DNA of 64,000 bases, from assembly GCF_000217715.1 (NCBI RefSeq), contig NC_015666.1, positions 1,810,270 through 1,874,269 on the forward strand, read 5' to 3'. How positions within the stretch are numbered: the stretch's first letter is position 1; each line of letters starts with the position of its first letter. The notes beneath the pieces are model-generated. The model was given only the letters and a program-made list of their open reading frames with translations. It was not told the DNA's origin and ran no database searches. Of the stretch, positions 44,008-63,689 are shown piece after piece. The position numbers and the translations under genes are program-made. This stretch comes from Halopiger xanaduensis SH-6 (GTDB lineage: Archaea; Halobacteriota; Halobacteria; Halobacteriales; Natrialbaceae).

Positions 44008-44063
44008 TCTTCCCCCATTAATTATTAATAACATACACGAGAAGACGATTCACGCACGATACT

Positions 44064-46213: not shown

Positions 46214-46217
46214 ACCC

Positions 46218-47336: not shown

Positions 47337-47357
47337 ATCACCTGGAGAGACTTCCGA

Positions 47358-47708: not shown

Positions 47709-47786
47709 CACCCGAATAGAGGAGTCCCACTGGGATGACGCTGAGTTTTGCTCGCGCAACATTCGTTTAAACGGGGTCTCTATGAG

Positions 47787-48437
47787 TTACTCTTGAGTCG
47801 TTATCAGAGTGCTTGCTACGAGGCGTCGAAGACCGCGCTGCAAACGCGATGAAACCGCTTGTCGGCTGACCTGGAGTTCGTCAGCGATATCGTCTTGCGT
47901 GGCTTTTCGCGGCGAATCGAAGTACCCACGAGAGTAGGCAAGTACCAATGCTGACCGCTGTCCCTCGGTTAAATCGAATTCTCGATCGGATTTGAGTGGC
48001 GAGAGTGCGTGGAGTTGGGTGAGTTCAATGAGGATATCATTCTCCCGGCAGTACGATTGGAATTCGGAGAGACTCTCTTGATCGCTACTTCTAACTTCAA
48101 ATGTCCAGTTCTTCTGTTCTCCCAGTCCGGAAAGGAGTGTGACTTCAGTGTTGACGATGGCGGTTAGAATGCTTTCGTGGTCGAGATTCCACTTGATGCG
48201 GACGAGCATCTCCTCCTCTAATTCGTCGATCTTTTTGAACTCATCAACCCCCTTATCATCACTCAAATCAGTTGTGAGCCCTCCAAGATTTTTCGAGTGA
48301 ATCCAGAAGTACGGTATGATGGCATCGTCCGTTGGAACAACGCGATCTAATTCAATGGTTACGTCTGGCAACTGTTCAAAAATTGTATTCAAAGGGAACT
48401 CGGGTTGTGGGACAGTAAATGAAGCTTCAATCGCCAT
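47787..48437 (-). CDS. HTH-10 regulator (module 2)
   Basis: A 216-aa protein of the same architecture as those at 11393 and 50649: TFTVPQPEFPLNTIFEQLPD, then the HTH-10 LTEGQRSALVLAYSRGYFDS and VSRQAVSSRLQRGLRRLVAS. It is more divergent and more AT-rich than the other two copies. Start MAIEASF matches MASEATF/MATEATF of the paralogues; 53 upstream codons were excluded. Confidence 0.85.
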   Translation of the reverse strand: MAIEASFTVPQPEFPLNTIFEQLPDVTIELDRVVPTDDAIIPYFWIHSKNLGGLTTDLSDDKGVDEFKKIDELEEEMLVRIKWNLDHESILTAIVNTEVTLLSGLGEQKNWTFEVRSSDQESLSEFQSYCRENDILIELTQLHALSPLKSDREFDLTEGQRSALVLAYSRGYFDSPRKATQDDIADELQVSRQAVSSRLQRGLRRLVASTLITTQE

Positions 48438-48650
48438 AGACTCGAGTAGTAGAAACCGCCTTTTGTGCTTCTCGCTGCTACTGCTTGTACTGAACTTCCG
48501 CTCTCTGGTTGTCCGAATTTTATCCCTTCGGTGAAATGCCTGTACTGAACGGCAACTACACGTGCGTACTGTTCGGTGTTCTCCAGGACATGACACTCAG
48601 ATTACTCCGTCACCAGAACCGCTTATGGAGCGAGGAGATGTCTCTCCTCT

Positions 48651-49370
48651 ATGACCGACTCGAGTAACGACGAGTTCGACCCAACAGCACCAGACCAGCG
48701 GGAGATCGGCCGCGAAATGGTTGACGACAGTACGGGGCTCGGTTCGGTGATGGCCCACGTCTATCGTGGAGAGATCGACCGAGTGGGGACGTGGCGACAG
48801 CGCCTCGACCAGACGACGACGTGGGCGGTGACGCTGATGGCAGCAATCTTGACGTGGGCGTTTTCGAGTACCGATAACCCGCACTATCTCTTGCTGATCG
48901 GGATCGTTGTCGTCACTATCTTTCTGGGCATCGAAGCACGGCGGTACCGGGACTACGATGTCTTTCGCTCTCGTGCTCGAGTCATCCAAGAGAACCTGTT
49001 CGCAAACGCCCTCGATCCGTCCCAAGGCACTGAAAGTCACGACTGGCGGGCGGAACTAAGTAGGGACTATCGCAGGCCGACGCTGAAAGTCTCGGTATCC
49101 GAAGCACTCGCAAACCGACTCCAGCGTGTGTACCTTGCGCTGCTCAGTGTCCTACTGGTCGCATGGGTCTTCAGGATTACAGCGTTCGCGCCGCGCCAAG
49201 ACTGGCTGACAACCGCTGAAATCGGCCGTATCCCCGGGATTGCTGTGGTTGCCATTGTGGGTGTGTTCTACGTCGTACTGCTTGGCGTTACCTTCTGGCC
49301 CCGTGAGCGCCATGCCAAGGGTGAATTCCGTGAAGGGGACCCAGACGACTGGAAAGAGACAGACCGATAA
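48651..49370 (+). CDS. DUF2270 membrane protein
   Basis: A 239-aa protein. Two helices near residues 58-75 and 82-98 (TTWAVTLMAAILTWAFSS, YLLLIGIVVVTIFLGIEARR) and two near 165-182 and 203-222 leave a soluble loop with YRDYDVFRSRARVIQENLFA. This is the DUF2270 pattern. The function is unknown. Located inside the island between two repeat copies. Confidence 0.85.
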   Translation: MTDSSNDEFDPTAPDQREIGREMVDDSTGLGSVMAHVYRGEIDRVGTWRQRLDQTTTWAVTLMAAILTWAFSSTDNPHYLLLIGIVVVTIFLGIEARRYRDYDVFRSRARVIQENLFANALDPSQGTESHDWRAELSRDYRRPTLKVSVSEALANRLQRVYLALLSVLLVAWVFRITAFAPRQDWLTTAEIGRIPGIAVVAIVGVFYVVLLGVTFWPRERHAKGEFREGDPDDWKETDR

Positions 49371-49488
49371 ATCCGCCCTCTGTACTGAACGATCACCACT
49401 TTCGCAGATCGAGCCGAATCTCGTGCTACAGTCGCGCCTTGTATGCAGCACGCTCGCAGAAACCTACCCAGTTTCCGTTAGAAGTCGC

Positions 49489-49542
49489 GTGCTGAATACA
49501 GAGGATGGATTCAGCACGACTGGTTCGTTTGTTTCACGCCGG
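49489..49542 (+). repeat. Dispersed repeat, copy B (best inverted ends)
   Basis: Begins CGTGCTGAATACAGAGGATG; its first 31 bp end in TTCAGCACG, giving a perfect 9-bp inverted repeat CGTGCTGAA / TTCAGCACG. It continues in register with copy A through TTTGTTTCACGCCG. Located between DUF2270 and the second HalOD1 gene. Confidence 0.65.
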
Positions 49543-49639
49543 ATCTACTGGATAGGGCATTCAGTAGACGTGCGAACTGACTGCTCGACAGGACGCGACT
49601 CACGAGTGAGGGAACAAACGCCGGTAGCCGGTTCGAATA

Positions 49640-49948
49640 CTACGCGTTTATCAGTAGTGGTTCTTCACTTGGGGCGATTCGAAGCTCGCCATCCGCATCA
49701 ATCTTCACTGTGTATCCCTGATACTCGAAGGCAAGTCGACACGGGGTTTCGGTCTCCTCAGCGCGGGCAACAAACGAATCCAGCGCTTCCGGATCCACGC
49801 TGTCCCACAATGGTTCGAGTTCGTCCGGCTCCTGTCCAGTCAACTCTGTGATGGTTTGGATCACTATGGCACTCGTTGATTGATCGGTGGCCTCTAAATC
49901 GACTTTGTACACGGGGATTATTTCATCCAAGTTGTCGTGGTTAGTCAT
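49640..49948 (-). CDS. HalOD1 domain protein
   Basis: A 102-aa protein: VYKVDLEATDQSTSAIVIQT, then ELEPLWDSVDPEALDSFVARA and RLAFEYQGYTVKIDADGELR, matching HalOD1 and the protein at 47358. It is monodomain and downstream of repeat copy B. Target and signal are unknown. Confidence 0.8.
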   Translation of the reverse strand: MTNHDNLDEIIPVYKVDLEATDQSTSAIVIQTITELTGQEPDELEPLWDSVDPEALDSFVARAEETETPCRLAFEYQGYTVKIDADGELRIAPSEEPLLINA

Positions 49949-50217
49949 GATGAGGAAACCGAGAAACTCGTCACTTATCCTGCAGTCTGAATAGTATCTC
50001 AGATATGAAAAACCTGATTACCAATCTATTTGGGACAATTACTGGTCAACCCCGTCCGAGAGATATACCGTCTGTACTGAACGTTGGCACCTGTGTCGTA
50101 GAAGACAGAGAGCTTCACAAGCCCAACTGCTCAGTATACGTGCGTATTGTTCGTCGCCCTCATTCCCTCAATGGAACGGTCTGGCACCAGACCAGAATGG
50201 AGAGCGGTTGATCGACG

Positions 50218-50577
50218 TTAGAGTTCGATCGGCGCTTCAAGTGTGGGGTCAACATCAACGATCGTAGACACGGTCGGCTGTATCCGCTCAAACTGCTCGG
50301 TCGGTTCGACGAGCTGTCGGTCCGGATCATAGGTAATAATCCCTTCCGAAGCTAGCTTTGGAAGGTGGACGTGATGGAGTGAGAGGTGAATCTCGGTTAG
50401 TACGTCCTCAGAGACCTCTGTAATTGACGTCTGATGGTTGTACTTGAGGACGGTTTGCGCAAGGTCATTCAGCGTTAGCGACCGCTGTTCTGCTGCGAGT
50501 ATCCCCAGCACGATCCGACGATGTTGGTGTTGACAGAGGTCGAGGACCGAATCGAAGGCGGAGGAAGCCTCACTCAT
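50218..50577 (-). CDS. DUF7344 regulator (module 3)
   Basis: A 119-aa protein, the same length as the copy at 10975, and clearly homologous over its full length: CQHQHRRIVLGILAAEQRSL, TSITEVSEDVLTEIHLSLHH, and the shared ending E-A-P-(L/I)-E-L. It follows an HTH-10 gene by 71 bp, the same order as in module 1. Confidence 0.85.
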   Translation of the reverse strand: MSEASSAFDSVLDLCQHQHRRIVLGILAAEQRSLTLNDLAQTVLKYNHQTSITEVSEDVLTEIHLSLHHVHLPKLASEGIITYDPDRQLVEPTEQFERIQPTVSTIVDVDPTLEAPIEL

Positions 50578-50648
50578 TATCTGTAGTGCAGACGACTGAC
50601 GCCAATCACACTGGCTTTTTCATATACAAACCGCTTTTACGTAGCCGA

Positions 50649-51305
50649 TCAAGATCGGTATTCGACAGCGGAGAGCGTACTCCCGAGGATGTGGTTGATC
50701 CCACCTCGGATGCGGGATCCAACGGCCTGTTGTGAGATGCCAAGCTCCTCACCGAGCACCTCTAGCGTGGCCTCACGAGGGGACTCAAAGTAGCCACGCT
50801 CGTAGGCGAGTACCAGCGCCTCTTGCTGGGTGTCGGTGAGGGCGGCTTCGGTCCCCGTTTCGACCGGTGTGAGCGCGTGCAACTCTGTCAGCGTGGTCGG
50901 GATGTCCAGTTCTCGACAGCGTTGTTGAAATTCGGCGATGTCGCTTCGGTCGTCACCGCGGATCTCGAACGTCCACTGGTGGTTCGTACCGGTGGCCTCG
51001 ATGAGCGGTACCTCCGTCTCCGCCAGTACGGTGAGCACGTCGTCGTAGTCCATTGCCCACTCGACTCGTAACAGATACTCGTCTTCGACGGAGTCCACGA
51101 GTCGAATCTCTTTCGTGCCGGGATGCTCGGTGAACGCGCTCTCAATGTCATCAACTTCGGTTCCCCGTACCCAGAAATAGGGAATCACTACGTCCCGTGC
51201 GGGGATAATGCGCTCAAGCTCAACCGTCACGTCCGGCAATTGGTTGAACACTGTCCCCAGCGGGAACTGGTCGGACGGAACCGTGAACGTCGCCTCAGTA
51301 GCCAT
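50649..51305 (-). CDS. HTH-10 regulator (module 3)
   Basis: A 218-aa protein very like the one at 11393: MATEATFTVPSDQFPLGTVF, IPARDVVIPYFWVRGTEVDD and the C-terminal HTH-10 AYERGYFESPREATLEVLGE with ISQQAVGSRIRGGINHIL. Conservation extends across both domains, so modules 1 and 3 probably come from a recent duplication or a shared transfer. Confidence 0.88.
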   Translation of the reverse strand: MATEATFTVPSDQFPLGTVFNQLPDVTVELERIIPARDVVIPYFWVRGTEVDDIESAFTEHPGTKEIRLVDSVEDEYLLRVEWAMDYDDVLTVLAETEVPLIEATGTNHQWTFEIRGDDRSDIAEFQQRCRELDIPTTLTELHALTPVETGTEAALTDTQQEALVLAYERGYFESPREATLEVLGEELGISQQAVGSRIRGGINHILGSTLSAVEYRS

Positions 51306-51709
51306 TGTCAGTACCAGTGGCTCCCACCGGGAAAGGTCTACGACCGAGTGCTCGTGACGCCGTTGTTCGTGGATGCCTGCTTTCTTGGACCATACCTCGA
51401 TTGTAGGTGAGTCTCAACACCAACAGTGGGATCAGTGATGAGGTGCTTGAGGTCGTTCTCTGCTTCCCTTGTAGTGAGCAGCTCATCGCATTTCGTTTCA
51501 TCTCGTATTGGAGAGATCACGCAGATTAGTACAGGACAAGCAAATAACGGTATGGTACAGAATCTCACTGATCACGATCAAGAACGCCGTGCTGAATACA
51601 GAGGATGGATGCACCACTATATCCCTTCATCTCCGTAATTTTCCCGAAATAGAAACGGACGAACTGACCGGGACATTTTGTGGCCAAGAACAGTCGGGGA
51701 GAAACCGGA
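51306..51709. other. 404-bp gap with repeat copy C
   Basis: No supported gene. A minus-strand reading (51568-51338, 76 codons) is not recognisable as a protein. A truncated copy of the dispersed repeat lies at 51588-51617. Confidence 0.5.
51588..51617 (+). repeat. Dispersed repeat, copy C (truncated)
   Basis: CGTGCTGAATACAGAGGATG then GATGCACCAC, losing the second inverted arm (TTCAGCACG) after the shared left half. Confidence 0.55.
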
Positions 51710-51958
51710 TTATTTGATCGACTGGAGAAATTCGTCCAGCGGATCTGTGAGTTCATCCACCTCCTCTCCGTTGATTTCAGCTGAGTACCGGATAATGACC
51801 ACATCCTTCTCATCAGTATGTCGGGCTTTATCAATATTCTCAACACCTTTCCAAATTCCTGTAACTTCAACTTGGCCATGTTTGGCGTGGTTGTACGTTT
51901 CACCACGGCTCACGACCATCTCTGAATCAGAACCCGGTAGATCGTCAGAATCGCCCAT
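51710..51958 (-). CDS. Conserved small haloarchaeal protein
   Basis: An 82-aa protein: SRGETYNHAKHGQVEVTGIW, VENIDKARHTDEKDVVIIRY and an acidic tail EEVDELTDPLDEFLQSIK. The fold looks like a small beta-rich domain. No family name can be assigned. The gene sits at the right edge of the AT-rich island. Confidence 0.55.
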   Translation of the reverse strand: MGDSDDLPGSDSEMVVSRGETYNHAKHGQVEVTGIWKGVENIDKARHTDEKDVVIIRYSAEINGEEVDELTDPLDEFLQSIK

Positions 51959-52077
51959 ACGAACCTCTGATAGCCGCTGAACCTTGTCCCTGTTGGTTGA
52001 TGTAGTCTATTGTTCGCCTCTACTGACCGTTCGCTCCTCCTCGTGAATCCGCCTTCGGCTTATGGCACATTCGCGCC

Positions 52078-52091
52078 CTGTATTCAGCACG
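52078..52091 (-). repeat. Dispersed repeat, inverted fragment (copy D)
   Basis: CTGTATTCAGCACG is the reverse complement of CGTGCTGAATACAG, the left end of copies B and C. Its flank CACATTCGCGCC matches the fragment at 12169-12195. It marks the right end of the island. Confidence 0.5.
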
Positions 52092-52190
52092 GCTTCGACA
52101 ACCGATCACCAATTAGGGATTTCAACGCGACCTATCGAGACGAATTACAGGCGCGGAGAACGATAGCAGCGCTGGACCGACGCTCGATCC

Positions 52191-52412
52191 CTACTGTTTC
52201 TGGCGTTCGGTTGCGAGTTCGAAGTTCCACACGAATCCGAAGTAGGCGACGATCCCGGCGAGCATGAGCGTGTAGTACACCAGCGTCGGCGGGCCGAGCA
52301 GGTAGTTGATGGTCTCGACGATCGTTACCCAGACGACGGCGAAGGCCAGATCCGTCAGGATTCCCCACCGTTCCTCGCGGGCAGTCTGGAGCCACTCGCG
52401 GACGCCGCTCAT
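52191..52412 (-). CDS. Small two-helix membrane protein
   Basis: A 73-aa protein with helices ILTDLAFAVVWVTIVETINY (about 18-37) and VYYTLMLAGIVAYFGFVWNF (about 45-64), and a charged tail. It is a conserved-looking small haloarchaeal membrane protein with no recognised family. GC content returns to the chromosomal average here. Confidence 0.65.
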   Translation of the reverse strand: MSGVREWLQTAREERWGILTDLAFAVVWVTIVETINYLLGPPTLVYYTLMLAGIVAYFGFVWNFELATERQKQ

Positions 52413-52580
52413 CGCTCGCTCACCCGGTCCGGTTCCCGTTTCCGTCTCCCATCGGCAGCAGTAACGGCGATCATTGTGCGACTATCTCGCACGCACCGGA
52501 AAAAGCCTATCGGCGCGCTCGAGCGGGGCGCTTTCGCCGCTGCACCTGTGACATGAACCCGTTGGGCGATCGCCTCACCA

Positions 52581-53057
52581 CTACGCGTCCCAGTACGGCA
52601 CGTCGTCGTCCATATCGTAATAGCCCTCGAGCGACCGCTCGTCCCGGCCGCCGGGCGGCGAGCCGACGAAGACGCCGAGTTTGTTCATCTCCGGGTAGAC
52701 GGTGACGTCGGGCTCGTTCATCGTCGAAATTGCCAGATAGCGCAGCGGTTTGTCGCCGTCGTTGACGACGCGGTGGCCGCCGCTCGCGTCCGCCGGCAGC
52801 GTCACGTAGTCGCCCGCCGTCAGCGGGGCGGGACCGTCGTCGGTCCGTAGCTGTCCGTCGCCGGCCAGCACGTACAGCGCCTCCTCGTTCGCCGTGTGGT
52901 AGTGGTAGGGCCACGAGCGGGTGCCGGGCGGGAGTTCGTAGAGACTACAGCCCAACTCGTCGGCGTCGACGGCGTTCGAGAGTTCCTTCCGGCGAAACGT
53001 CGTCTCCTCGCGATCGTACGCCTGCCACTCGAGGTCGCGTTCGTTGACTTTCTCCAT
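52581..53057 (-). CDS. Cupin domain protein
   Basis: A 158-aa single cupin. The metal-site motif PYHYHTANEEALYVLAGDGQ at about residues 49-68 is followed by GDYVTLPADASGGHRVVNDG near 82-101, the two conserved cupin boxes. A C-terminal extension of about 45 residues ends DMDDDVPYWDA. Similar proteins bind small sugars or metals; the substrate is not identifiable. Confidence 0.85.
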   Translation of the reverse strand: MEKVNERDLEWQAYDREETTFRRKELSNAVDADELGCSLYELPPGTRSWPYHYHTANEEALYVLAGDGQLRTDDGPAPLTAGDYVTLPADASGGHRVVNDGDKPLRYLAISTMNEPDVTVYPEMNKLGVFVGSPPGGRDERSLEGYYDMDDDVPYWDA

Positions 53058-53203
53058 AGGTTGTGCTGCACCCGCAGCCGGATAATGATACTCGAGCGAA
53101 ATGAACGGGTGCGGCGACGGCCGCTGTCACCGAAGCGCGCCGTCGGGCGTCCGCTGACCGCGAAAACGAAACCCCCTAACCGCGCCCGGGAGTGGGTACG
53201 AGC

Positions 53204-53806
53204 ATGCACGACGAACCCGACGTCGCCGTCCTCCGGCTCGGCCACCGGCCCGGACGCGACGACAGGATGACGACCCATGTCGGCCTCACGGCCCGCGCGC
53301 TGGGCGCCGACCGGGTCTGGTTCCCCGACAACGCCGGCCAGTCGCTCGAGACCGTCGCCGATATCACCGACCGCTTCGGCGGCCCGTTCGAGGCCGAACT
53401 GACGGACTCGCCGAAGGCGCTCATCCGCAACTGGGAGGGCCGAGTCGTCCACCTCACGATGTACGGCGAGCGCGTGCAGGACGTGGAAGACGACATTCGG
53501 GCAGCCCGCTCGAACGGGGACGAAAGCGAGAGCGACGTCGACAGCGAGGGCGACGACGAAGGCGAGCCGCTACTGATCGTCGTCGGCTCCGAGAAGGTCC
53601 CCTTCGACGTCTACGAGGAAGCCGACTGGAACGTCGGCGTCACGAACCAGCCCCACTCCGAAGTGGCCGGCCTCGCCGTCTTCCTCGACCGGCTGTTCGA
53701 AGGCCGCGAACTCGAGCAGGAGTGGGAAGGCGCCGACCGCACGGTAATTCCGATGGAGACGGGCAAGCGCGTCGAACCGGCAGGGGAGGAAGACGCGTCC
53801 GACTAG
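53204..53806 (+). CDS. tRNA (cytidine(56)-2'-O)-methyltransferase (aTrm56)
   Basis: Methylates the 2'-OH of C56 in the T-loop of archaeal tRNAs. A 200-aa SPOUT protein with VLRLGHRPGRDDRMTTHVGL at the N-terminus and the AdoMet knot LLIVVGSEKVPFDVYEEADW and VGVTNQPHSEVAGLAVFLDR. An Asp/Ser/Glu-rich insertion of about 18 residues precedes the knot. Start MHDEPDV used. It may belong with tfe (58489) in the archaeal arrangement, with an oxidase block inserted between (inference). Confidence 0.88.
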   Translation: MHDEPDVAVLRLGHRPGRDDRMTTHVGLTARALGADRVWFPDNAGQSLETVADITDRFGGPFEAELTDSPKALIRNWEGRVVHLTMYGERVQDVEDDIRAARSNGDESESDVDSEGDDEGEPLLIVVGSEKVPFDVYEEADWNVGVTNQPHSEVAGLAVFLDRLFEGRELEQEWEGADRTVIPMETGKRVEPAGEEDASD

Positions 53807-53957
53807 TCGACTCGCCGCTTTTTCGGTATTCGACGTCCGGAACAGCCTCGCGTCGCAGCAGCCGTGCTCTCGGTTCCGACGGCCACGAGGTGGTGATTTT
53901 CACGGGTTGTTGATCCCCCCAAAGCATCTGTACTAGAACGGAATAGCGGTCCGTATT

Positions 53958-55889
53958 GTGACGGAGGACGATGCGTTCACTCGCCGAAAATACTTGAAAT
54001 TGGCCGCGATCGGCGGCGCCAGCGCAGCGATCGCAGGGTGTAGCGAGTTCGGACGGGGCCAGGAATCACAGAACGCCTCGGAGTCGACGGACGAACCGCC
54101 GACGGTGGACGTCCCGGCACTCCGGATGGAAACTGCCGACTTCGCCTCCGTCCGGCAGTTTTCCAACCGGAACTACGAGCGAATGCACGCCTATCGAAAG
54201 CGACAGGCGATCGAGACGCTGCTGTCCGATCCGGCGGTCAACGACATCGTCACCGACTGGGTCGGCGGATTCGAAGCGTATGAAGTGCTCACGAACCATC
54301 TCGAGACGATTAGTCTCCAGGGACCGACGGACATGACCGTTCAGGTAGACGGGTTTCCCGACGGCGAGGAAGCCCAGTTCGACGTGACCGCGAAGAACCG
54401 ACGAACCGTCTACGGACTCGTCGACCGCCGTCGCGACGAGATCGTCGCCCTCCAGATCACCGACCCCCAGGACGTCGAGTGGACGGTGACCCAGACGCCC
54501 GGCCAGATGGTGATCGGCGAGGCGATCCACGACCTCGAGGTGGTCCGCGACGCCTTCGGCGACTTGAGCGAACGGGACTGGTATCCCTCGTGGAAGGGCG
54601 CAACCGGGGGGTACACCGGGCTCGGCCAGGCGGAGCTCCGACACGGCTACGGCGGCACCGCGGTCCTGCACGTAAAGGACGGCGACGAAGTACGGATAAT
54701 TAGCGCGTTTATCGACGGTTCGGACCCCGAAAACCCCGAGATCATCGAGGCCGCGGTGCTCGACCACGCCGTGGAGTTTCCGCCGTACGAACTCGCCGCG
54801 TCCATCGAACCGGCCTCGGAATCGGTGCTCGAGGCCGTCCCGGACGTACCGACCGAACAGCGCCCGTACTACACGGCCAATGAGGGGTACCACCGGATCG
54901 AACCGCCGTCGGAGTCGTTCGAACAGGACGGGTGGGAGATCGAGTGGACGCCCGCCGACACCCAGGGGGTAACCGTCGCGGCGTCGTTCCAGGGGAGCCC
55001 GGTATTCGAGGCGATGGACACGCCGTACACGTTCACGGGGTACTACCTCCCGCCGCGGGAGGGGCGGAACACGCGAGAGTGGTACTTCCCGGACGACGAC
55101 ACGGTGTTCAGCGGCGATCTCCTCTTCTGGGACATCCACTCGTCGAACCCTGGCGGCCCGGGGATGCTCGCAAAACTCGACTTTCCGGCCCGCGGCGAGA
55201 CGCCGACCGGGTTCCAACTCAAGAGTCACTTCCACTCGAGCGCGATCGGTCAGGAGAGCGTCGACTTTCACTCCGGGTTCCGCTTCGGCCCGTACAACTA
55301 CGATCTCGCGTACGAGTTCTACTCGGACGGCGTCCTGCTGCCCGTGTTCCGACGCGCCGGCCCGGGGTTCGTCACGCAGTTCGTTCGGAAGGTCGAAGAA
55401 TCCGCCGAGTCGTACGGCGAGAACGGCTCCTACGAGGAGCCGGTCGTCCAACACTACACGTCGGCCAAGGCTATCGACATCACGCCCGGCACCACGGACG
55501 GCGTCGCGGTGGAACTCTTCGACGGGGACGAGTGGACGACGCCCGAATCGGAGTTCTACCTCGAGGGCGAGCCGGGGATGATCGCCCGGTTCAGTAACCC
55601 CGACGGGACGGAAACGATCGACATTCCGCTCCGAGACGATCAGGAACTCGTCGTCGTCAGACGGGACGAGTCGGAGATCGGGCCGGGTGAGTATCAGGCC
55701 CAGCGGCTGTACGACGAGGAGATTCCCTCTCGCCACTATCACCCGGCACAGTACGTCGACGACCAGCCGATCCAGGGCGAACGGGTCATCGTCTGGCTGC
55801 TCATGCTCGGAGCGATCGGTCAGATGCCCCACCCGTCGGGAACGTCGAACTTCGTCACGAAAGGGCGGATGGAGCTGTCAGGATACTAA
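53958..55889 (+). CDS. Exported copper amine oxidase-like protein
   Basis: A 643-aa protein with a twin-arginine, lipobox N-terminus (RRKYLKLAAIGG, AGC at C28). The middle and C-terminal parts resemble copper amine oxidases: a candidate TPQ tyrosine in YNYDL at Y448 and surrounding GPYNYDLAYEFYSDGVLLPV. Where the HxH copper ligands are expected, VQHYT (V497-Q498-H499) keeps only one His, and the C-terminal His position (near G621) is not obvious. It may therefore be a non-copper homologue. GTG start. A DyP-like gene follows after 26 bp. Confidence 0.6.
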   Translation: MTEDDAFTRRKYLKLAAIGGASAAIAGCSEFGRGQESQNASESTDEPPTVDVPALRMETADFASVRQFSNRNYERMHAYRKRQAIETLLSDPAVNDIVTDWVGGFEAYEVLTNHLETISLQGPTDMTVQVDGFPDGEEAQFDVTAKNRRTVYGLVDRRRDEIVALQITDPQDVEWTVTQTPGQMVIGEAIHDLEVVRDAFGDLSERDWYPSWKGATGGYTGLGQAELRHGYGGTAVLHVKDGDEVRIISAFIDGSDPENPEIIEAAVLDHAVEFPPYELAASIEPASESVLEAVPDVPTEQRPYYTANEGYHRIEPPSESFEQDGWEIEWTPADTQGVTVAASFQGSPVFEAMDTPYTFTGYYLPPREGRNTREWYFPDDDTVFSGDLLFWDIHSSNPGGPGMLAKLDFPARGETPTGFQLKSHFHSSAIGQESVDFHSGFRFGPYNYDLAYEFYSDGVLLPVFRRAGPGFVTQFVRKVEESAESYGENGSYEEPVVQHYTSAKAIDITPGTTDGVAVELFDGDEWTTPESEFYLEGEPGMIARFSNPDGTETIDIPLRDDQELVVVRRDESEIGPGEYQAQRLYDEEIPSRHYHPAQYVDDQPIQGERVIVWLLMLGAIGQMPHPSGTSNFVTKGRMELSGY

Positions 55890-55915
55890 TATTCTGGGGA
55901 GACTGGATCGCCGAT

Positions 55916-57256
55916 ATGACAGACGACACGACACCGGACCGATCGCGACGGGCGTTCGTCCGCGCGGCGGTCGCGGCCGGCGCGAGCGCCGCGCTCGTCG
56001 GCTGTCTCGAGGACGGGACGACGCTGCAGGCACCCGCCGGCGTCGAAGCGCCGTCGTCGCTCCCCGACCGACAACACGCCTGGAACGACGCGCTCCACGA
56101 GGATCGGGACGGGAACGTCAGCCCGCCCGAACACCACGTCTTCCTCGGGTTGTCGCTCTCGGCGGAGCCGGACGAGACGGCCCGCGAAACCGTGCGAACG
56201 GCGTTGCGAGAAGTCGAGAAAGCGATCGCGTGGGGCCCCGACGGCGTCCTCTTCACGCTCGGGTACACCCCCGCGTACTTCGATCGGTTCGACGCGCCCC
56301 TCGGCGACGCCGTCGACCTTCCGGAGCCGGAGCCGATCCTCGCGCTCACCGCCGAGAGCGACGTGACGGTCGACACGAACGACGCGCTCTTGCACCTCGC
56401 GAGCGACGACGGCGCGGCGGTACTCGCCGTCGAACAGGCCCTGTTCGGCGATCGCGACCGGCTCAACGGCCGTTCGCTGTCGGCGTCGCTCGAGGGCGTC
56501 TTCGACCGGACGGCCCGTCGAACGGGCTTCGTCGGGCCCGGCCTGCCGGCCGATCGACAGGACGGGCTGGACGGCATCCCCGACGGCGAGCCGGTACCCG
56601 ACGAAGCGCCGTTCTTCATGGGGTTTCGATCCGGCTTTCGGGAAAGCCAGGCGACCGAGGACCGGGTAACGATCCGGGAGGGGCCGTTCGCCGGCGGCTC
56701 GACGCAGCACTTCGAAACCCTCGAGCTCGACCTCGAGGTATGGTACGACGAGAGCGACCACGAGCAACGCGTCGCGCGGCTGTTCAGCCCCGCACACGCC
56801 GAACGGGAGGCGGTCGGCGAGGTCGGCGAGCGGCTCGGGACCGAAACCGGCGTCGCGTCGGTCGCCGACGACGTCCGCGACCACGCTCGCGACGAGGGCG
56901 TCGTCGGCCACGCACAGAAGCTCGCTCGAGCCCGGGACGACGGGACGCCGACGCTGCTCCGACGGGACGTGAACACGACCGACGACGACGTCTGCGGCGT
57001 CCACTTCGTCTCCCTGCAACGGGAAATGTCGGAGTTTACCCGCGTCCGGGAGGCGATGCTCGGCGAGGAGTTCGGCCGGTACGGGCTCGGTCCGCGTCAG
57101 GGTAACGGTATCCTCCGGTACCTCCGGGTACGGCGCTGGGGAAGCTACCTCGTTCCGCCGCGGCCCCGCCGGGCGCTCCCGCGACCTGACCCGGACGGTG
57201 AGGACTCCGAAGCGGACGACGCCCCGAAGGAAAAAGACGGTAGCGGCGACGGCTAG
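55916..57256 (+). CDS. Exported DyP-type peroxidase-like protein
   Basis: A 446-aa protein with a Tat-type signal (RSRRAFVRAA, then a hydrophobic run and VGC at the end) and a DyP-like body: GFVGPGLPADRQDGLDGIPD (residues about 203-222, G-x2-D-G type), FFMGFRSGF, and a probable proximal-haem segment GSTQHFETLELDLEVWYDES. C-terminal LLRRDVNTTDDDVCGVHFVS and ending polar tail. DyP family assignment is from motif order; the haem ligand needs confirmation. Co-transcribed with the amine-oxidase-like gene. Confidence 0.7.
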   Translation: MTDDTTPDRSRRAFVRAAVAAGASAALVGCLEDGTTLQAPAGVEAPSSLPDRQHAWNDALHEDRDGNVSPPEHHVFLGLSLSAEPDETARETVRTALREVEKAIAWGPDGVLFTLGYTPAYFDRFDAPLGDAVDLPEPEPILALTAESDVTVDTNDALLHLASDDGAAVLAVEQALFGDRDRLNGRSLSASLEGVFDRTARRTGFVGPGLPADRQDGLDGIPDGEPVPDEAPFFMGFRSGFRESQATEDRVTIREGPFAGGSTQHFETLELDLEVWYDESDHEQRVARLFSPAHAEREAVGEVGERLGTETGVASVADDVRDHARDEGVVGHAQKLARARDDGTPTLLRRDVNTTDDDVCGVHFVSLQREMSEFTRVREAMLGEEFGRYGLGPRQGNGILRYLRVRRWGSYLVPPRPRRALPRPDPDGEDSEADDAPKEKDGSGDG

Positions 57257-57295
57257 GACGGCGGCGTCCGACGAGAACGCGCGGTCGATTCGGTC

Positions 57296-58018
57296 TCACC
57301 CGGACGGGCGCAGCAGCCGGAACGGTCGGAGCAATCGCCCGCCGACTAACCGAACGGCGGCCCGGAGAAACGGGACGAGTCCCGTATCGCTCTCGTCGAG
57401 GACGTAGCCGTTGCCGACGCGGTCGATCGGTCCCGACTCGCCGCGAGCGTGCTCCGAAAGCACGCGCTCGAGATCGGCTTCGCTCAGCCCGGTTCGCGAC
57501 CGCAATTCCGCCGTCGTCAACGGCCGATCGGCGTCGCGGAGCGCCTTCGTCACGCGGCGATTGTGTCCCGCCATGCGGGCGACCTCGGCTCGCGACGGGT
57601 CGTCGGTGTCGGTATCAGTGTCGGCGTCCGCGTCCGCAGTGGCCCCTCGAGCGTCCGCATCGGCCGATCCCCCGTGTTGCCAGCTGTAGAGCCCGTCGAG
57701 CCAGATCCAGCAGCCGATCGCGAGGAGGGCGCTCCCGAGCCACGGACTGCGCGCTCGCAGTTGCACGACACCGGCGGCGAGCCAGGCGAGGCCGAAGGCC
57801 GTCCACGCGAGCCCCGGCGGCGGATCGAACCGCTCGAGGACGGTCTCGACGATCGGCGTGACTACGACGAGTGCGAGAAAGAGCGCGATCAGATCGGTCG
57901 AAAACCCGACCGCTGAGAAGAGGCCCGCGACAGCGATCGAAACGCCGATATCGACCGGATCGTACCGCTCGCGTATCCAGGGGACGACCTGCTGGAGCAC
58001 GTGTTCTTCGTACGACAC
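57296..58018 (-). CDS. Membrane protein with C-terminal wHTH
   Basis: A 240-aa protein from GTG 58018 (VSYEEHVLQQ...). About four hydrophobic segments cover residues about 25-120 (VSIAVAGLFSAVGFSTDLIA, WLGSALLAIGCWIWL). A Thr/Asp/Ala-rich linker follows, then RVTKALRDADRPLTTAELRS, RTGLSEADLERVLSEH, a winged-helix-like region. This could be a membrane-bound transcription regulator. The alternative ATG at 58120 lies inside the divergent gene's start and was not used. Confidence 0.6.
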   Translation of the reverse strand: MSYEEHVLQQVVPWIRERYDPVDIGVSIAVAGLFSAVGFSTDLIALFLALVVVTPIVETVLERFDPPPGLAWTAFGLAWLAAGVVQLRARSPWLGSALLAIGCWIWLDGLYSWQHGGSADADARGATADADADTDTDTDDPSRAEVARMAGHNRRVTKALRDADRPLTTAELRSRTGLSEADLERVLSEHARGESGPIDRVGNGYVLDESDTGLVPFLRAAVRLVGGRLLRPFRLLRPSG

Positions 58019-58103
58019 GATCGCCCCTAAACGTACCGCCGTGGCGGAACGCGAGCGGGGGTCCGTCCGAACTTCTTTGTAGCCGGTCGTTGGGGCTGTC
58101 ACC

Positions 58104-58382
58104 ATGGCGGAGACGACCACGTATCAGGACGACGTGACGCGCGACGAGGCCGCCGATCTGGTGCAAGAGCTGGCCGCCGAACTGCGCGGCCAGGGCCCCG
58201 CACAGGTACAGGTCGGCAACAAACTGCTGACCCTGACACCGGCGTCGACGCTCGAGTACGATATCGAAGTCGAGGAGCGCTCGCCGATGCTCGGCGGGGA
58301 TCGCGAGGAGATTACGGTCTCGATCGGCTGGGAGGTACCGGAAGGCGGCGACGACCTCGAGGACGACCAGGATATCGAGTAG
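58104..58382 (+). CDS. amphi-Trp domain protein
   Basis: A 92-aa protein: TTTYQDDVTRDEAADLVQEL, VQVGNKLLTLTPASTLEYDI and ITVSIGWEVPE, with the conserved amphipathic Trp near the end and an acidic tail. This matches the amphi-Trp family of short archaeal/bacterial proteins. Role unknown. Confidence 0.8.
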   Translation: MAETTTYQDDVTRDEAADLVQELAAELRGQGPAQVQVGNKLLTLTPASTLEYDIEVEERSPMLGGDREEITVSIGWEVPEGGDDLEDDQDIE

Positions 58383-58488
58383 CACCGCCGGCCCGAATCT
58401 GCGTCGCACACGGATAGCGATCGGTAGCTACCGCACGGAGCAGGGCAGTTGGCAAGACTTAATGGCCACATGCCGTTACACGTAGGTA

Positions 58489-59016
58489 ATGGCTTTTGAG
58501 GACCTGCTCGAGGACCCGGTCATCCAGAAGTACTTGCACGAGTTGGTCGGTCCCAAGGGGATGCCCGTCGCGGCGGCCCCGCCGGACGGCGAAGTGACCG
58601 ACGAGGAGCTCGCCGAGGAGCTCGACCTCGAGTTGAACGACGTGCGGCGCGCGCTGTTTATTCTCTACGAGAACGATCTCGCCAGCTACCGCCGCCTGCG
58701 CGACGAGGACTCGGGCTGGCTCACCTACCTCTGGACCTTCGAGTACGACAACATTCCGGAGAACTTAGAGGAAGAGATGTACCGGCTCCACGACGCCTTA
58801 GAGGAGCGCCAGGAGTACGAACGGAACCACGAGTTCTACCTCTGTGAGATCTGTTCGATCCGGTTCGAGTTCGGCGAAGCCATGGACTTCGGCTTCGAGT
58901 GCCCCGAGTGCGGCTCGCCGCTGGAATCGATGGACAACGACCGGCTCGTCAACGCGATGGACGAGCGCCTCGAGGCCCTCGAGGAGGAACTCAACATCGA
59001 CGGCGCGGACGCCTAA
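58489..59016 (+). CDS. tfe: Transcription factor E (TFE alpha)
   Basis: Archaeal homologue of TFIIE-alpha that stabilises the open promoter complex. The 175-aa protein has an N-terminal winged helix (residues 1-85: FEDLLEDPVIQKYLHELVG, VTDEELAEELDLELNDVRRA) and a zinc ribbon C119-x2-C122 / C138-x2-C141 (FYLCEICSIRFEF, FECPECGSPL). A TATA-like TTAATGG lies upstream. Followed immediately by the DUF2110 and DUF5803 genes. Confidence 0.93.
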   Translation: MAFEDLLEDPVIQKYLHELVGPKGMPVAAAPPDGEVTDEELAEELDLELNDVRRALFILYENDLASYRRLRDEDSGWLTYLWTFEYDNIPENLEEEMYRLHDALEERQEYERNHEFYLCEICSIRFEFGEAMDFGFECPECGSPLESMDNDRLVNAMDERLEALEEELNIDGADA

Positions 59017-59020
59017 TCGA

Positions 59021-59695
59021 ATGGTCGTACTCGCAACCAAACTGTACGTCGAAGGCGACGCCCGCGAGCGATCGCTCGACTCGCTGCGGTCGCTGGTGAA
59101 CAACGAGATCGGCGACCTCGAAGTCGAGTTCGAACTCGGCGTGCGCCACGACGACTTCCCCTCGGTCACGATCGAGGGCGAGGACGCCACCGTCGCGCGC
59201 AACGTCCTCCGCGAGGAGTTCGGCGAGATCGTCCCCGATCTCGAGGCCGGCGAAACCTACGTCGGCACGCTCGAGTCGTGGGACGACGAGGGGTTCGTCC
59301 TCGACGCCGGACAAGCGGTGCGGATTCCGGCCGACGAACTCGATCTGGGTCCCGGCTCCCCGACGCAGATTCGGGAGCGGTTCGGACTCGTCCAGCACGT
59401 GCCGCTGCGATTCGTCTACGGCGGAGAGGGCGAGGCGTCGACCCTCGCCGACGAGGAAGTCGACCGCCTCTTCGAGTGGACCCGCGGCGACGGGCGGCTC
59501 AACGTCAACAGCGCCACGCGGGCGGAGGTCCGCGCGACGCTCAACCGCGCGGGCCACGCCCAGGACTACGTCACCGTCGAACGGCTCGGACTCCTCGAGC
59601 AGAGCGTGATCTGTACCGACGATACGGACCCGCCGGGGCTGCTGGCCAGCGTCGGCGAGTACCTCCCGGCGGAACTGCGCTGCGTCGTTCCCTAA
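59021..59695 (+). CDS. DUF2110 family protein
   Basis: A 224-aa protein beginning MVVLATKLYVEGDARERSLD and with GTLESWDDEGFVLDAGQAVR, RLNVNSATRAEVRATLNRAG and a C-terminal RLGLLEQSVICTDDTDPPG. Characteristic of haloarchaeal DUF2110, often next to tfe. It starts 4 bp after tfe and 1 bp separates it from the next gene. The role is unknown. Confidence 0.85.
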   Translation: MVVLATKLYVEGDARERSLDSLRSLVNNEIGDLEVEFELGVRHDDFPSVTIEGEDATVARNVLREEFGEIVPDLEAGETYVGTLESWDDEGFVLDAGQAVRIPADELDLGPGSPTQIRERFGLVQHVPLRFVYGGEGEASTLADEEVDRLFEWTRGDGRLNVNSATRAEVRATLNRAGHAQDYVTVERLGLLEQSVICTDDTDPPGLLASVGEYLPAELRCVVP

Positions 59696-59696
59696 C

Positions 59697-60467
59697 ATGA
59701 ATCGCCGGCTCGTTCTCGCGGTGCTCGCAGTCGGACTGCTCGCCGGTACAGCGGGCTGTACGGGATTCTTCGGCGGCATCTCCGACGAACAACTCGATCA
59801 GAACGCGAGCTACGACGATCTGCGCGACAGCGAGGCCAACGTCACGGTCGACGTCGAGGGCGGCGGCATCATCAGCGACGGCGAGTTCCGCGCCGTCTAC
59901 GACCTCAACGACACCGAGGAACTGTCGCTGTACCGGTCGCAACTCTACCGCGACGAGGCGCTCGACGTCCGCGGCGTCCGGTACTGGTACCCCAACGGGA
60001 CGGAAGTGACCGGCTCCGAACTCAACGTTGAGCAGGACCGCTCGAGCACGCAGGTCCGGGTGCCCGACGGAAACGGGACGCTCGCGTTCTCGGGCGACGC
60101 GGGCCGGCGAACCTTCCAGCTGCCGGCCTACGTCGAAGGATCCTACCGGGTCACCCTGCCGGAGGGCCACCGGACGTCGAACTTCCTGTTCGGCGACGTC
60201 AGCCCCGGCGGCTACGAGCGCGAAATCGTCGACGATCGCGAGCGGCTGACCTGGGAGAACGTCGATAGCCCGCTCTCGCTGCGATACTACCAGACCCGGG
60301 ACATTCCGCTGTTCGCCGGGTTGATCGGTGCGGTCGTGCTGCTCGGCGGCGCCGGCATCGCGTACTACTACCGGCAGATCAAACGACTGCAGGAACAGCG
60401 CGAGGAGATGGGCTTCGACATCGATATCGACGATTCGGACGACGGCCCGCCGCCCGGCATGCGATAA
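59697..60467 (+). CDS. DUF5803 lipoprotein with C-terminal membrane helix
   Basis: A 256-aa protein. Residues 1-21 form a lipoprotein signal with lipobox AGC at C21 (LLAGTAGCTGFFG), an extracellular Asp/Asn-rich beta domain follows, and a C-terminal helix IPLFAGLIGAVVLLGGAGIA near residues 203-222 ends in a charged, acidic cytoplasmic tail. Matches DUF5803. It completes the tfe-DUF2110-DUF5803 cluster. Confidence 0.82.
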   Translation: MNRRLVLAVLAVGLLAGTAGCTGFFGGISDEQLDQNASYDDLRDSEANVTVDVEGGGIISDGEFRAVYDLNDTEELSLYRSQLYRDEALDVRGVRYWYPNGTEVTGSELNVEQDRSSTQVRVPDGNGTLAFSGDAGRRTFQLPAYVEGSYRVTLPEGHRTSNFLFGDVSPGGYEREIVDDRERLTWENVDSPLSLRYYQTRDIPLFAGLIGAVVLLGGAGIAYYYRQIKRLQEQREEMGFDIDIDDSDDGPPPGMR

Positions 60468-60497
60468 TCGCTCGCGTCGGCACGGCGGTCCGCTCTT

Positions 60498-61004
60498 CTA
60501 GCCGTGAATCGCCGTCTCGTCCAGTAGAATCGCGCTCCCGTCCTCGAAGACGAATCGTCCGTCGACGTGTTTCGTGTCGGCCCGCGTCGACTCGAGGTCG
60601 GCCATTCGAACCGTTCTCGTGACGTCGACGCCGTCGACCAGCCAGCCGTAGTAGGCGCCGGTTTCGTCGGTTTCGTCGATGACCAGCAGCATCGGATCGT
60701 CGATCCGCGCGGCCGTTTCCCGCGTCCGCTCCGCGGCGAACACGCGGGGCAGATCGACGACGCGAACGCGCTCGCCGCGGACGGTGACGGTCCCCGCGTT
60801 CCAGGGGTCGTCGGCGTCCTCGAGCGGCGCCGTCTCGGAGAGGCCGAGGACGGAGGCGACGGCGTCGGTGCGGACGCAGTAGCGTTCGGACGCGAGCGAG
60901 AAGGTGAGGACCGTCAGCCGGTCGTCGTCGACGGCGTCCGCACCGTCATCGGCGGCTGCGTCGGGGCCGGGGTCAGGGTCCGCGCGGTCGACAGGGGAGG
61001 TCAT
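60498..61004 (-). CDS. cheW: Chemotaxis coupling protein CheW (divergent)
   Basis: A 168-aa protein; start MTSPVDR, preferred over longer N-termini with no CheW character. After an acidic 27-residue leader, LTVLTFSLASERYCVRTDAV, TVTVRGERVRVVDLPRVFA and LVIDETDETGAYYGWLVDGV show the CheW beta-barrel pattern. It is on the opposite strand to the other che genes and presumably shares the upstream regulatory space with the cheW at 61166. Confidence 0.85.
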   Translation of the reverse strand: MTSPVDRADPDPGPDAAADDGADAVDDDRLTVLTFSLASERYCVRTDAVASVLGLSETAPLEDADDPWNAGTVTVRGERVRVVDLPRVFAAERTRETAARIDDPMLLVIDETDETGAYYGWLVDGVDVTRTVRMADLESTRADTKHVDGRFVFEDGSAILLDETAIHG

Positions 61005-61165
61005 CGTATTCGCTCTCACCATGGAAAGACCCGAAAATAAACGTTGTGCGTCTCGCCGTCTCCTGTTTCGACAGTGGCACGACTGGCTGCGGCTGCGGGA
61101 CACGCCTGCTCCGTCGCCGCGGGAGTCAACGTTTTATCACTGGACTGGGATACACGAACGGATAC

Positions 61166-61858
61166 ATGGCCCCGGACCTCCCCGACAAGCTTCTCGGCAT
61201 CGATATCGACGGTGACGACCGCGCGCAGCAACGGTCCGACGAGTCCGACGACGAGGAAGACCTCGTGCGGCTCGTGCTGTTTACCGTCGGCGAGCACCGA
61301 CTGGCCGTCCCCGTCGACGAGGTTCGCACGACGACGGACCTCCCCGACGAACTGACGTCGGTCCCGCGAACGCCGCCGGCGGTCGAGGGCGTTACCGACC
61401 TCCGCGGCGAGATCACGGCCGTGATCGATCCGTCCGTGCACTTCCCGACGGACGAACACGGAGCGGGCGCCGGCGGCGAGCAGTTGCTGGTCTTCGATCG
61501 CGGCGCCGACGACCAGTCGGCGGCGATCCGAGTCGACGAGGTTCTGGACGTCGAGTCCGTTCCCGAGCGCAACCTCCTCGAGGCGGACGACGTCGCGTCG
61601 CGCGATTTCGAGACCGATCTGCTCGAGCACCCGCTGGTCAGCGTGCTCGCCGAACAGGAGCGGCGGCCGACCCAACGGATCGGGGAGACGGTCGTGTCGC
61701 CGACCGGGGGAGCGGCGGCCGCCGATTCGGTCGGTGAGTCGGACGCAGCGAGCGCGGACGCAACGGACGCAGCGCCGCAGGACGAGCCGGTCGTCGTCGA
61801 ACTCACGCCGGTCGTCGACGTCGACACGCTTTTGTTAGCGGCGGGGCCGCGGTCGTGA
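61166..61858 (+). CDS. cheW: Chemotaxis coupling protein CheW with acidic extension
   Basis: A 230-aa protein. The CheW core at about 33-165: LVRLVLFTVGEHRLAVPVDE, VEGVTDLRGEITAVIDPSVH and VDEVLDVESVPERNLLEA. An Ala/Asp/Ser-rich C-terminal extension follows (about 170-210), ending VVELTPVVDVDTLLLAAG. CheW links receptors to CheA. Two cheW genes in divergent orientation is the striking feature here. Confidence 0.88.
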   Translation: MAPDLPDKLLGIDIDGDDRAQQRSDESDDEEDLVRLVLFTVGEHRLAVPVDEVRTTTDLPDELTSVPRTPPAVEGVTDLRGEITAVIDPSVHFPTDEHGAGAGGEQLLVFDRGADDQSAAIRVDEVLDVESVPERNLLEADDVASRDFETDLLEHPLVSVLAEQERRPTQRIGETVVSPTGGAAAADSVGESDAASADATDAAPQDEPVVVELTPVVDVDTLLLAAGPRS

Positions 61859-61989
61859 CCGGTAACTACTGATCGTGGTAGCCGCGCGGACGGACCGCTT
61901 GCCGTCGTTTTCGTCGGTTATCACGTCTGATAATAGAGAGACAGCATTTATGGTAGTTGTATTTCTACCCGAATTTGGTGTACTAGTGA

Positions 61990-62352
61990 ATGTCGACAGG
62001 GGTGCTCATCGTAGACGACTCACATTTTATGCGGAATCTCCTCCGGCAGATTCTCGAGCAGGAATACCGCATCCTGGGTGAGGCGTCCAACGGGGCTGAA
62101 GCCGTCAAGTTGTACAAGGAACACGATCCCGATATCGTAATGATGGACATCGTGATGCCGAAGTGTAACGGCATCAAGGCGACCGCAGCCATAAAGAAAA
62201 TCGACCCCGACGCTAGCGTTATCATGTGCACGAGCGTCGGACAGCGGGAAAAGATGAAGCTCGCAGTCAAAGCGGGCGCGGACGGCTACGTGACGAAGCC
62301 GTTCGAGGAACCGAGCGTCAGAAAAGCGCTTACGGACGTCACTGCGGCATGA
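61990..62352 (+). CDS. cheY: Chemotaxis response regulator CheY
   Basis: A 120-aa single receiver domain: acidic pair D9-D10 (LIVDDSHFMRN), phosphoacceptor D53 (VMMDIVMP) and K103 in YVTKPFEE. A TATA-like GTATTTCTA at about 61960 lies about 27 nt before the ATG. It ends in an ATGA overlap with cheB. Confidence 0.93.
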   Translation: MSTGVLIVDDSHFMRNLLRQILEQEYRILGEASNGAEAVKLYKEHDPDIVMMDIVMPKCNGIKATAAIKKIDPDASVIMCTSVGQREKMKLAVKAGADGYVTKPFEEPSVRKALTDVTAA

Positions 62353-63689
62353 CGCGAGTACTCGTTGTCGACGACTCGCAGTTCTTCCGGACAGTCGTCG
62401 GCAACGCGCTCAGCGACGCCGATTACGACGTCGAAACGGCCGATACCGGTACCGAGGCGGTCGAAATCGTGAGAGACGCGGCATTCGATCCTGACGTAGT
62501 GACCATGGACGTCGAGATGCCGGACATGAACGGCATCGCGGCCGTCGAGCGGATCATGGCAGCGACGCCGACGCCGGTCATCATGGCCAGCGCGTATACC
62601 GATACGGGTGCGGAGGCGACCCTCGATGCGCTGGAAGCCGGCGCGATCGACTTCCTCCAGAAGCCCGACGGGTCGGGCTCGCGCAACATCGCTCACTTCG
62701 TGGACGACCTCCGCGAGAAGATCGATCGACTGGACGACGTCGACGTGTCGTCCCTCGCCGAGGTCCGACCGACGAGCAGTGAGACGCGCTCGGAATCGAC
62801 CGTTCGTTCTGCATCTCACTCGGACGCTTCTCCTCGCTCTCGCTCGCACTCGCCCGCGGCACGCGCCGACCGCTCGAGTCCGTCGACGGTCGGTACCGCC
62901 GGGACGACGTCGCGAGGTGAGACGGCGGTCGAATCGATCGCACCGGCCGATCTGGAAACGGATACCGACGCGCAACGGACTGCGGCGGCTGTGCCCGAGC
63001 GCAGCGACGATCCGGCGTCCGCGGTCAGTCTCGACAGTGCAGACGACGGAACGCGCGGCCCGACGATCGTCGTCGGCGCCTCGACGGGCGGTCCGAAGAT
63101 CGTCGAACGGCTGCTCCAGCGGCTCCCGATCGGCCTCGACGCGACGGTGCTGATCGTCCAGCACATGCCGGCCGACTTCACCGGGCGATTCGCCGATCGA
63201 CTCGACGCGATGGGGCCGTACGCGGTCAGCGAGGCCGGCGACGGCGACCGGGTCGGCCCCGGCGAGGCGGTCGTTGCACCCGGCAGCGCCCACCTCGAGA
63301 TCGGCGCCGACTTCGGCGACTCGCTTCGCGTCCGCCTCGACGAAGCGCGCCGCGACTACGGGATCCAGCCGGCGATCGACGTCACGATGGAAACGGCCGC
63401 CGACCGCGTCGACGGACCGCTCTGTGGCGTCGTCCTGACCGGCATGGGCGACGACGGCGCCGCCGGCATCGAGGCGATCAAAGCTGCAGGTGGGCGAACC
63501 ATCGCACAGGACGAGGCGACGAGCCCCGTTTTCGGCATCCCCTGTCAGGCGATCGAAACCGGCTGCGTCGATTCGGTCGCTCCCGCCCCCGAGATCGTCG
63601 ACGAGATCATCGCCGCGTTCGCGGACGCGACGCCCGAGCCGGACCCGAACCCGGACCCGGACGCGAAAGCGGGTGACCGCGATGACTGA
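62349..63689 (+). CDS. cheB: Chemotaxis methylesterase CheB
   Basis: A 446-aa protein. Receiver domain (1-125) with phosphoacceptor D54 and KPDG; a long Ser/Arg/Thr-rich linker of about 110 residues (SRSHSPAARADRSSPSTVGT), then the methylesterase domain with the Ser of GASTGGPKIV, His of VQHMPADF and Asp of TGMGDDGAAG forming the catalytic triad. It removes methyl groups from receptors and may also act as a glutaminase. Overlaps cheA start. Confidence 0.93.
   Translation: MTRVLVVDDSQFFRTVVGNALSDADYDVETADTGTEAVEIVRDAAFDPDVVTMDVEMPDMNGIAAVERIMAATPTPVIMASAYTDTGAEATLDALEAGAIDFLQKPDGSGSRNIAHFVDDLREKIDRLDDVDVSSLAEVRPTSSETRSESTVRSASHSDASPRSRSHSPAARADRSSPSTVGTAGTTSRGETAVESIAPADLETDTDAQRTAAAVPERSDDPASAVSLDSADDGTRGPTIVVGASTGGPKIVERLLQRLPIGLDATVLIVQHMPADFTGRFADRLDAMGPYAVSEAGDGDRVGPGEAVVAPGSAHLEIGADFGDSLRVRLDEARRDYGIQPAIDVTMETAADRVDGPLCGVVLTGMGDDGAAGIEAIKAAGGRTIAQDEATSPVFGIPCQAIETGCVDSVAPAPEIVDEIIAAFADATPEPDPNPDPDAKAGDRDD

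Follow-up and report, generated by a model that had tools for sequence, protein, structure and literature searches.

Methylamine dehydrogenase passes its electrons to the blue copper protein amicyanin, and the heme protein MauG matures its cofactor. For copper amine oxidases, passages of PMC3382800 state that canonical topaquinone (TPQ) needs copper, held by three strictly conserved histidines, as well as the consensus T-X-X-N-Y-D/E, and that zinc is unable to replace copper in TPQ formation. For DyP-type peroxidases, passages of PMC8463360 describe the aspartate of GxxDG as part of a motif unique to these enzymes, while a histidine holds the heme iron. Here we describe a pair of adjacent genes, P0001 and P0002, from the 4.36 Mb genome of the archaeon Halopiger xanaduensis SH-6. 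The pair lies in a stretch of 64,000 nucleotides (NC_015666.1, positions 1,810,270 to 1,874,269), which is the window referred to throughout:

53958..55889, + strand: P0001, GTG start, 643 amino acids
55916..57256, + strand: P0002, ATG start, 446 amino acids

By structure prediction, P0001 is a copper-amine-oxidase fold that sequence searches miss, and its copper site, judged from aligned sequences, is lost. P0002 is a branch of the DyP superfamily without the signature aspartate. The explanation we put first, though at well below even confidence, is that P0001 is an exported oxidoreductase on an amine-oxidase scaffold, free of copper, which works with a lineage-specific exported one-electron partner. 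A literature search returned nothing on DUF7405 (the family of P0002), on copper amine oxidases together with haloarchaea, or on halocyanin together with amine dehydrogenase.

Fold and copper-site positions of P0001

Family searches returned little for P0001. Pfam returned no family, PF01179 included, at E<=10, an NCBIfam scan gave no family beyond a sub-threshold Tat (twin-arginine translocation) signal, and none of 28 P0001-family members matched the copper amine oxidase family (PF01179) at E<=1. Searching the PDB with the sequence or the profile of P0001 was likewise uninformative, and two weak matches of P0001 were treated as chance. The information came instead from an AlphaFold model built from the 28 sequences (predicted local distance difference test, pLDDT, 74.4; predicted template-modelling score 0.76). 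When this model was compared with the PDB by Foldseek, the best 50 matches were all copper amine oxidases, with a best E of 1.1e-15, and VIA-align superposed it on these enzymes with Z 21.7 over 340 aligned residues (root-mean-square deviation 4.5). Profile comparison with hhalign points the same way. The profile of mature P0001 scored 44.7 against 13 copper amine oxidases and 17.5, 16.7 and 13.8 against controls (DUF7405, aldehyde dehydrogenase and DUF7350), and the full-length profile scored 43.6 where 60 column shuffles reached 29.9 at most. The profile signal is nonetheless modest, with an hhalign probability of 41-49%, falling to only 8% against five haloarchaeal copper amine oxidases, and for this reason the claim for the fold rests mainly on the predicted structure. 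The amine-oxidase likeness had been proposed in a reading of the DNA made without database searches (hereafter the sequence-only reading). The prediction bears it out, and neither of the results that would have spoken against that reading, a different fold or three properly placed histidines, was seen.

To place the active-site residues, the register between P0001 and the copper amine oxidases was compared in five profile comparisons, one with the whole set and four with subsets. The positions concerned are as follows:

54501..55886, + strand: P0001 residues 182-643, superposable on copper amine oxidases (VIA-align)
55446..55454, + strand: V497-Q498-H499, at the place of the copper HxH (profile alignment, family counts)
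55815..55817, + strand: Ile620, at the place of the third copper histidine (profile alignment, family counts)
55293..55295, + strand: Tyr446, aligned with the TPQ precursor tyrosine (all five profile comparisons)
55299..55301, + strand: Tyr448, within N-Y-D at 447-449 (family counts)
55137..55742, + strand: span with conserved H394, H424, H426, H438 and H595 (His in 26-27 of 28 each)

Val497 and His499 fall on the copper HxH in four of the five comparisons. Position 497 is histidine in none of the 28 family sequences, and position 499 is histidine in all 11 members of one subfamily (subfamily A, to which the Halopiger protein belongs) and in 0 of the 17 others. The third copper histidine aligns with Ile620 in four comparisons and with Gln622 in one, and position 620 is likewise never histidine (0/28). 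The VQH in place of HxH, the missing C-terminal histidine and a possibly copper-free state had all been put forward in the sequence-only reading, and the alignments support them. Its candidate Tyr448 for the TPQ tyrosine is not supported, since Tyr446 takes that place in every comparison. The two tyrosines are each conserved in 27/28 sequences. The stretch aligned with the TPQ site reads F443-G444-P445-Y446-N447 and does not match the T-X-X-N-Y-D/E consensus; a shifted N447-Y448-D449 is present without the threonine, and the aspartate after Tyr448 is confined to the 11 subfamily-A members. The catalytic aspartate aligns with Pro378 in four comparisons and with Asp380 in one, with acidic residues at 379-381, just after Pro378.

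Such losses can be read as those of a pseudoenzyme, in which P0001 would have the amine-oxidase fold without catalysis and would serve to bind a ligand or a component of the surface and to hold the DyP-like protein; the sequence-only reading had named a non-catalytic partner as its alternative. The missing copper ligands and TPQ consensus speak for this, as does the proline at the catalytic-aspartate position in most of the comparisons. However, Tyr446, Asn447, Tyr448 and Asp392 are near-invariant across the family, and together with the five histidines of the span listed above they suggest a working site; the linkage of relatives to aldehyde dehydrogenase and blue copper genes, described below, suggests redox chemistry. 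We regard a dead enzyme as rather unlikely, though as a serious rival. His229 and His312 are likewise histidine in 26-27 of the 28 sequences, and one may guess that the conserved histidines make up a new metal site.

P0002, predicted export and surroundings of the pair

P0002 was assigned by Pfam to DUF7405 (PF24152) with an E of 3.4e-151. Its own match to Dyp_perox_C is sub-threshold (17.1 bits against a curated cut-off of 20), and the cut-off is passed by all seven of its relatives that were scanned, six of which had been found through Dyp_perox_C itself. Matches to Dyp_perox_C were found in 13 of 145 haloarchaeal genomes; these 13 loci all resemble DUF7405-type proteins, as Pfam confirmed for six. 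A low-confidence predicted model of P0002 gave DyP structures throughout its best 50 Foldseek matches (best E 6.6e-5) and also throughout the best 50 of VIA-align (best Z 11.5, 178 residues aligned). Together with a weak PDB alignment (E 0.063-0.71 to DyP chains), these results agree with the DyP likeness named in the sequence-only reading. The positions of interest are these:

56909..56911, + strand: His332, aligned with the DyP histidine, the expected heme ligand (weak PDB alignment)
56960..56965, + strand: Arg349-Arg350, the expected distal arginine (weak PDB alignment)
56630..56632, + strand: Ser239, at the place of the DyP GxxDG aspartate (Pfam registration)

His332, Arg349 and Arg350 are each kept in 24/24 DUF7405 sequences, and from these residues heme binding by P0002 would be expected. 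The signature aspartate is a different matter. With P0002 residue 235 at position 6 of the Dyp_perox_C profile and the aspartate at position 10, as registered from locus L176, the aspartate column holds no aspartate in any of the 24 DUF7405 sequences and serine, alanine or glycine in all of them. A second candidate, GIPDG at 220-224 of P0002, was suggested by the hhalign register and rejected. Its Asp223 is present in only 17/24 sequences and some divergent members lack the stretch, and the Pfam register was preferred for that reason.

These results bear on the relay of hydrogen peroxide that the sequence-only reading had suggested, in which a surface amine oxidase yields peroxide and the DyP-like peroxidase consumes it. 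The fold kinship of the two proteins and their strict co-location in subfamily A favour such a relay. Against it are the absent copper site and TPQ motif, with zinc no substitute for copper in TPQ formation (PMC3382800, in the passages cited above), the serine in place of the DyP aspartate, and the other clades of the P0001 family, which have no DyP-like partner in the stretches searched. We consider the relay quite improbable, and less likely than our first explanation, the pseudoenzyme or the metal-handling role discussed below.

Both proteins start with what reads directly as a Tat signal peptide followed by a lipobox, RRKYLKL...AGC in P0001 and RRAFVRA...VGC in P0002:

53958..54041, + strand: Tat signal peptide of P0001, RR motif and lipobox Cys28 (direct reading)
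55916..56005, + strand: Tat signal peptide of P0002, lipobox Cys30 (direct reading)

The match of P0001 to the TAT_signal_seq model of NCBIfam is weak, at 14.8 bits against a cut-off of 16.7. Its lipobox cysteine is cysteine in 23 of 28 relatives, and Cys30 of P0002 is invariant in the DUF7405 alignment (A2). With full profiles, hhalign linked P0001 and DUF7405 at 91% probability, but the match covered the 31-residue N-terminal Tat signal only; without that signal the score dropped to the 17.5 given above. The two genes lie on the same strand with 26 bp between them, and the exported-type, closely spaced pair of the sequence-only reading is thus what the coordinates and N-termini give. They are preceded by a gene for Trm56 (Pfam), and the gene on their 3' side is on the opposite strand. 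A gene for a cupin-domain protein lies upstream at 52581-53057 (- strand).

Distribution, partner genes and competing explanations

The distribution of both families was surveyed over 242 genomes of the class Halobacteria, to which the named relatives belong. Relatives of P0001 were matched in 34/242 genomes and, by reading, are full-length in 28 of these (33 places), the remaining matches being fragments or matches to the Tat signal. A search with the P0001 profile matched 188/242 genomes, and here the weak rows listed were confined almost entirely to the N-terminal signal. Of the 242 genomes, 23 carry true copper amine oxidases, and the genome of the window is not among them. The P0001-family alignment (A1) omits L002, L003 and L006, taken to be from the same genomes as L007, L012 and L014, as well as L009 and L028, which nearly duplicate L005 and L027, and the fragments L033 and L034. 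Five family places omitted from A1 were included in the maximum-likelihood tree, which has 37 rows, 36 of them different.

From this tree, with ungrouped rows set aside, it was evident that members followed by DUF7405 and members adjacent to a blue-copper gene form separate groups with 100/100 support. Partner genes were counted by tblastn, as a crude gene caller had overlooked some genes. In subfamily A, a DUF7405 gene lies directly downstream on the same strand in 13/13 distinct loci (10 from the 242 genomes together with L004, L005 and L173), and the pairing is therefore more than chance and is conserved in other haloarchaea, a point on which the sequence-only reading had asked for a check. 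Of the 15 rows in the sister clade, 11 have a divergent gene of the plastocyanin/azurin type no farther than 2 kb away; three blue-copper queries were used, and divergent blue-copper genes could escape them. All eight sister-clade blue-copper proteins scanned are above the Copper-bind cut-off, and one is annotated as halocyanin. With only 7-19 Copper-bind matches per genome in eight genomes, a chance blue-copper neighbour is estimated to be rare, at about 1-2% per locus, although the 11 loci are related by descent and do not count as independent cases. In 7/15 sister-clade rows, aldehyde dehydrogenases are encoded within 4 kb, and the best models for those scanned were betaine- and aminobutyraldehyde-dehydrogenase, below the cut-offs.

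Several other arrangements were noted around P0001 relatives. Five loci (L092, L155, L156, L157 and L174) share a block of a P0001-type gene, a convergent aldehyde dehydrogenase, a gene for a protein of about 200 amino acids and a second aldehyde dehydrogenase; in L174 the slot of the 200-residue protein holds a helix-turn-helix gene, and in Haloarcula sinaiiensis the block is found on plasmid pHsi540. In L097, L099 and L159, the relatives are accompanied by two small divergent genes that are conserved as a pair, coding for a Tat protein of 182-192 amino acids and a protein of 106-109 amino acids, with no informative Pfam family where scanned. Two genomes of a single genus (G091 and G107) carry decaying copies of the P0001 gene: L033 and L034 are C-terminal fragments that match residues 461-643 of the query, and one of them contains an internal TAA.

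What, then, might the pair do? On the explanation placed first above, P0001 and P0002 would form an exported redox pair, probably lipid-anchored, in which P0001 would most likely still use the old pocket to oxidise a small substrate. The substrate may be an amine or another compound that yields an aldehyde. Its cofactor would be built from other conserved residues, namely Tyr446 and Tyr448 with the set of conserved histidines, and either the electrons would pass to the adjacent exported one-electron partner or this partner would service the cofactor. In subfamily A the partner would be the DyP-fold DUF7405 protein, presumably with heme, and in the sister clade a blue-copper lipoprotein of the halocyanin type. 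A bolder form of the same idea, which we think improbable, sees in the family exported amine or alcohol dehydrogenases of haloarchaea that evolved on the copper-amine-oxidase scaffold and work without copper, its tasks having been taken over by a neighbouring exported redox protein that has been swapped between clades. The loss of copper would have ended both the self-processing of the tyrosine cofactor and the reaction with oxygen. The DyP-fold heme protein might also oxidise Tyr446 or Tyr448 in trans, in a MauG-like manner, the blue-copper halocyanin would be the alternative partner, and aldehyde dehydrogenases would take the product.

A number of points weigh against the oxidoreductase with its one-electron partner. 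That the copper ligands and the TPQ consensus are lost would be expected just as well of a dead enzyme. DUF7405 is present in 213/242 genomes, mostly without P0001, and its general job is therefore not tied to P0001. Four rows nested in the sister clade have neither partner nearby, and for 10 rows outside both clades tblastn found neither partner in the stretches searched. Since the partner genes mark clades, each association may have arisen only once. On the side of P0002, confidence in the DUF7405 model is low (pLDDT 47.9), and hhalign matched DUF7405 to a single DyP only at E 0.11 and in another register.

The free-standing DUF7405 genes suggest yet another role. In 13 of 18 such loci, hand-picked and not random, a DUF7350 gene lies within about 1.4 kb, and when six of the neighbouring proteins were scanned all were DUF7350 and five were also above the Iron_transport cut-off. 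The genome of the window itself carries a second DUF7405 gene far from the pair (L152 6358-9036, contig G000:C3, at about 2.62 Mb), adjoining a DUF7350 lipoprotein that is one of these five. We take this DUF7350/Iron_transport lipoprotein partner to be of the P19 type. Handling of metal or heme iron would follow if DUF7405 were the haloarchaeal counterpart of EfeB and P0001 replaced the P19-like lipoprotein, its histidines binding metal without turnover. Besides these neighbours, the retention of His394, His424, His426, His438 and His595 in nearly all family members is in favour of this role. Yet DUF7350 is absent from the window stretch 44001-64000 and from the other subfamily-A stretches (12 searched, 11 distinct loci), most P0001 relatives have no adjacent DUF7405, and the blue-copper and aldehyde-dehydrogenase setting of the sister clade is not suggestive of iron uptake. 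We hold metal handling to be rather unlikely but, like the pseudoenzyme, a serious rival. Beside another DUF7405 gene, a Tat-type protein (L126 65-1375, - strand) contains an extended series of DDHH-type repeats that may bind metal.

In the annotated plasmid records examined, members of the P0001 family go under the label hypothetical protein, and sequence searches miss the fold. Many plasmid records label DUF7405 proteins Dyp-type peroxidase even though these lack the signature aspartate. If P0001 is active, it would be an enzyme of amine-oxidase fold without the copper that builds and uses the cofactor in the known enzymes, and the dependence of this scaffold on copper would become testable. 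The switch between a heme-type and a blue-copper redox partner from one clade to the other is a clear pattern that can be checked, and the relatives beside a blue copper protein hint at an unrecognised type of exported redox pair.

Comparison with known systems

The likeness of the P0001 pair to methylamine dehydrogenase with amicyanin and MauG is one of idea only, as the folds and cofactors differ. EfeUOB (PMC9174327) and P19-type iron uptake resemble the free-standing DUF7405 loci, where the gene usually sits beside a DUF7350/Iron_transport lipoprotein; the window pair is unlike them, with no Iron_transport partner gene alongside in the stretch 44001-64000. P0002 resembles the DyP-type peroxidases (PF20628), EfeB among them, in its predicted fold, in His332 and Arg349/Arg350, and in having relatives that pass the Dyp_perox_C cut-off. 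It differs in the GxxDG aspartate, replaced throughout by serine, alanine or glycine, and in belonging to a Pfam family of its own. The closest comparison for P0001 is with the copper amine oxidases (PF01179), such as the Arthrobacter globiformis and E. coli enzymes. In structural alignments the identity to these is about 10-15%, and P0001 is set apart by the Tat/lipobox N-terminus, the lack of a Pfam match, and the absence of the copper histidine triad and of T-X-X-N-Y-D/E at the aligned site. It is like them in its predicted fold over residues 182-643, in a collinear profile alignment and in the tyrosine that it keeps at the TPQ position.

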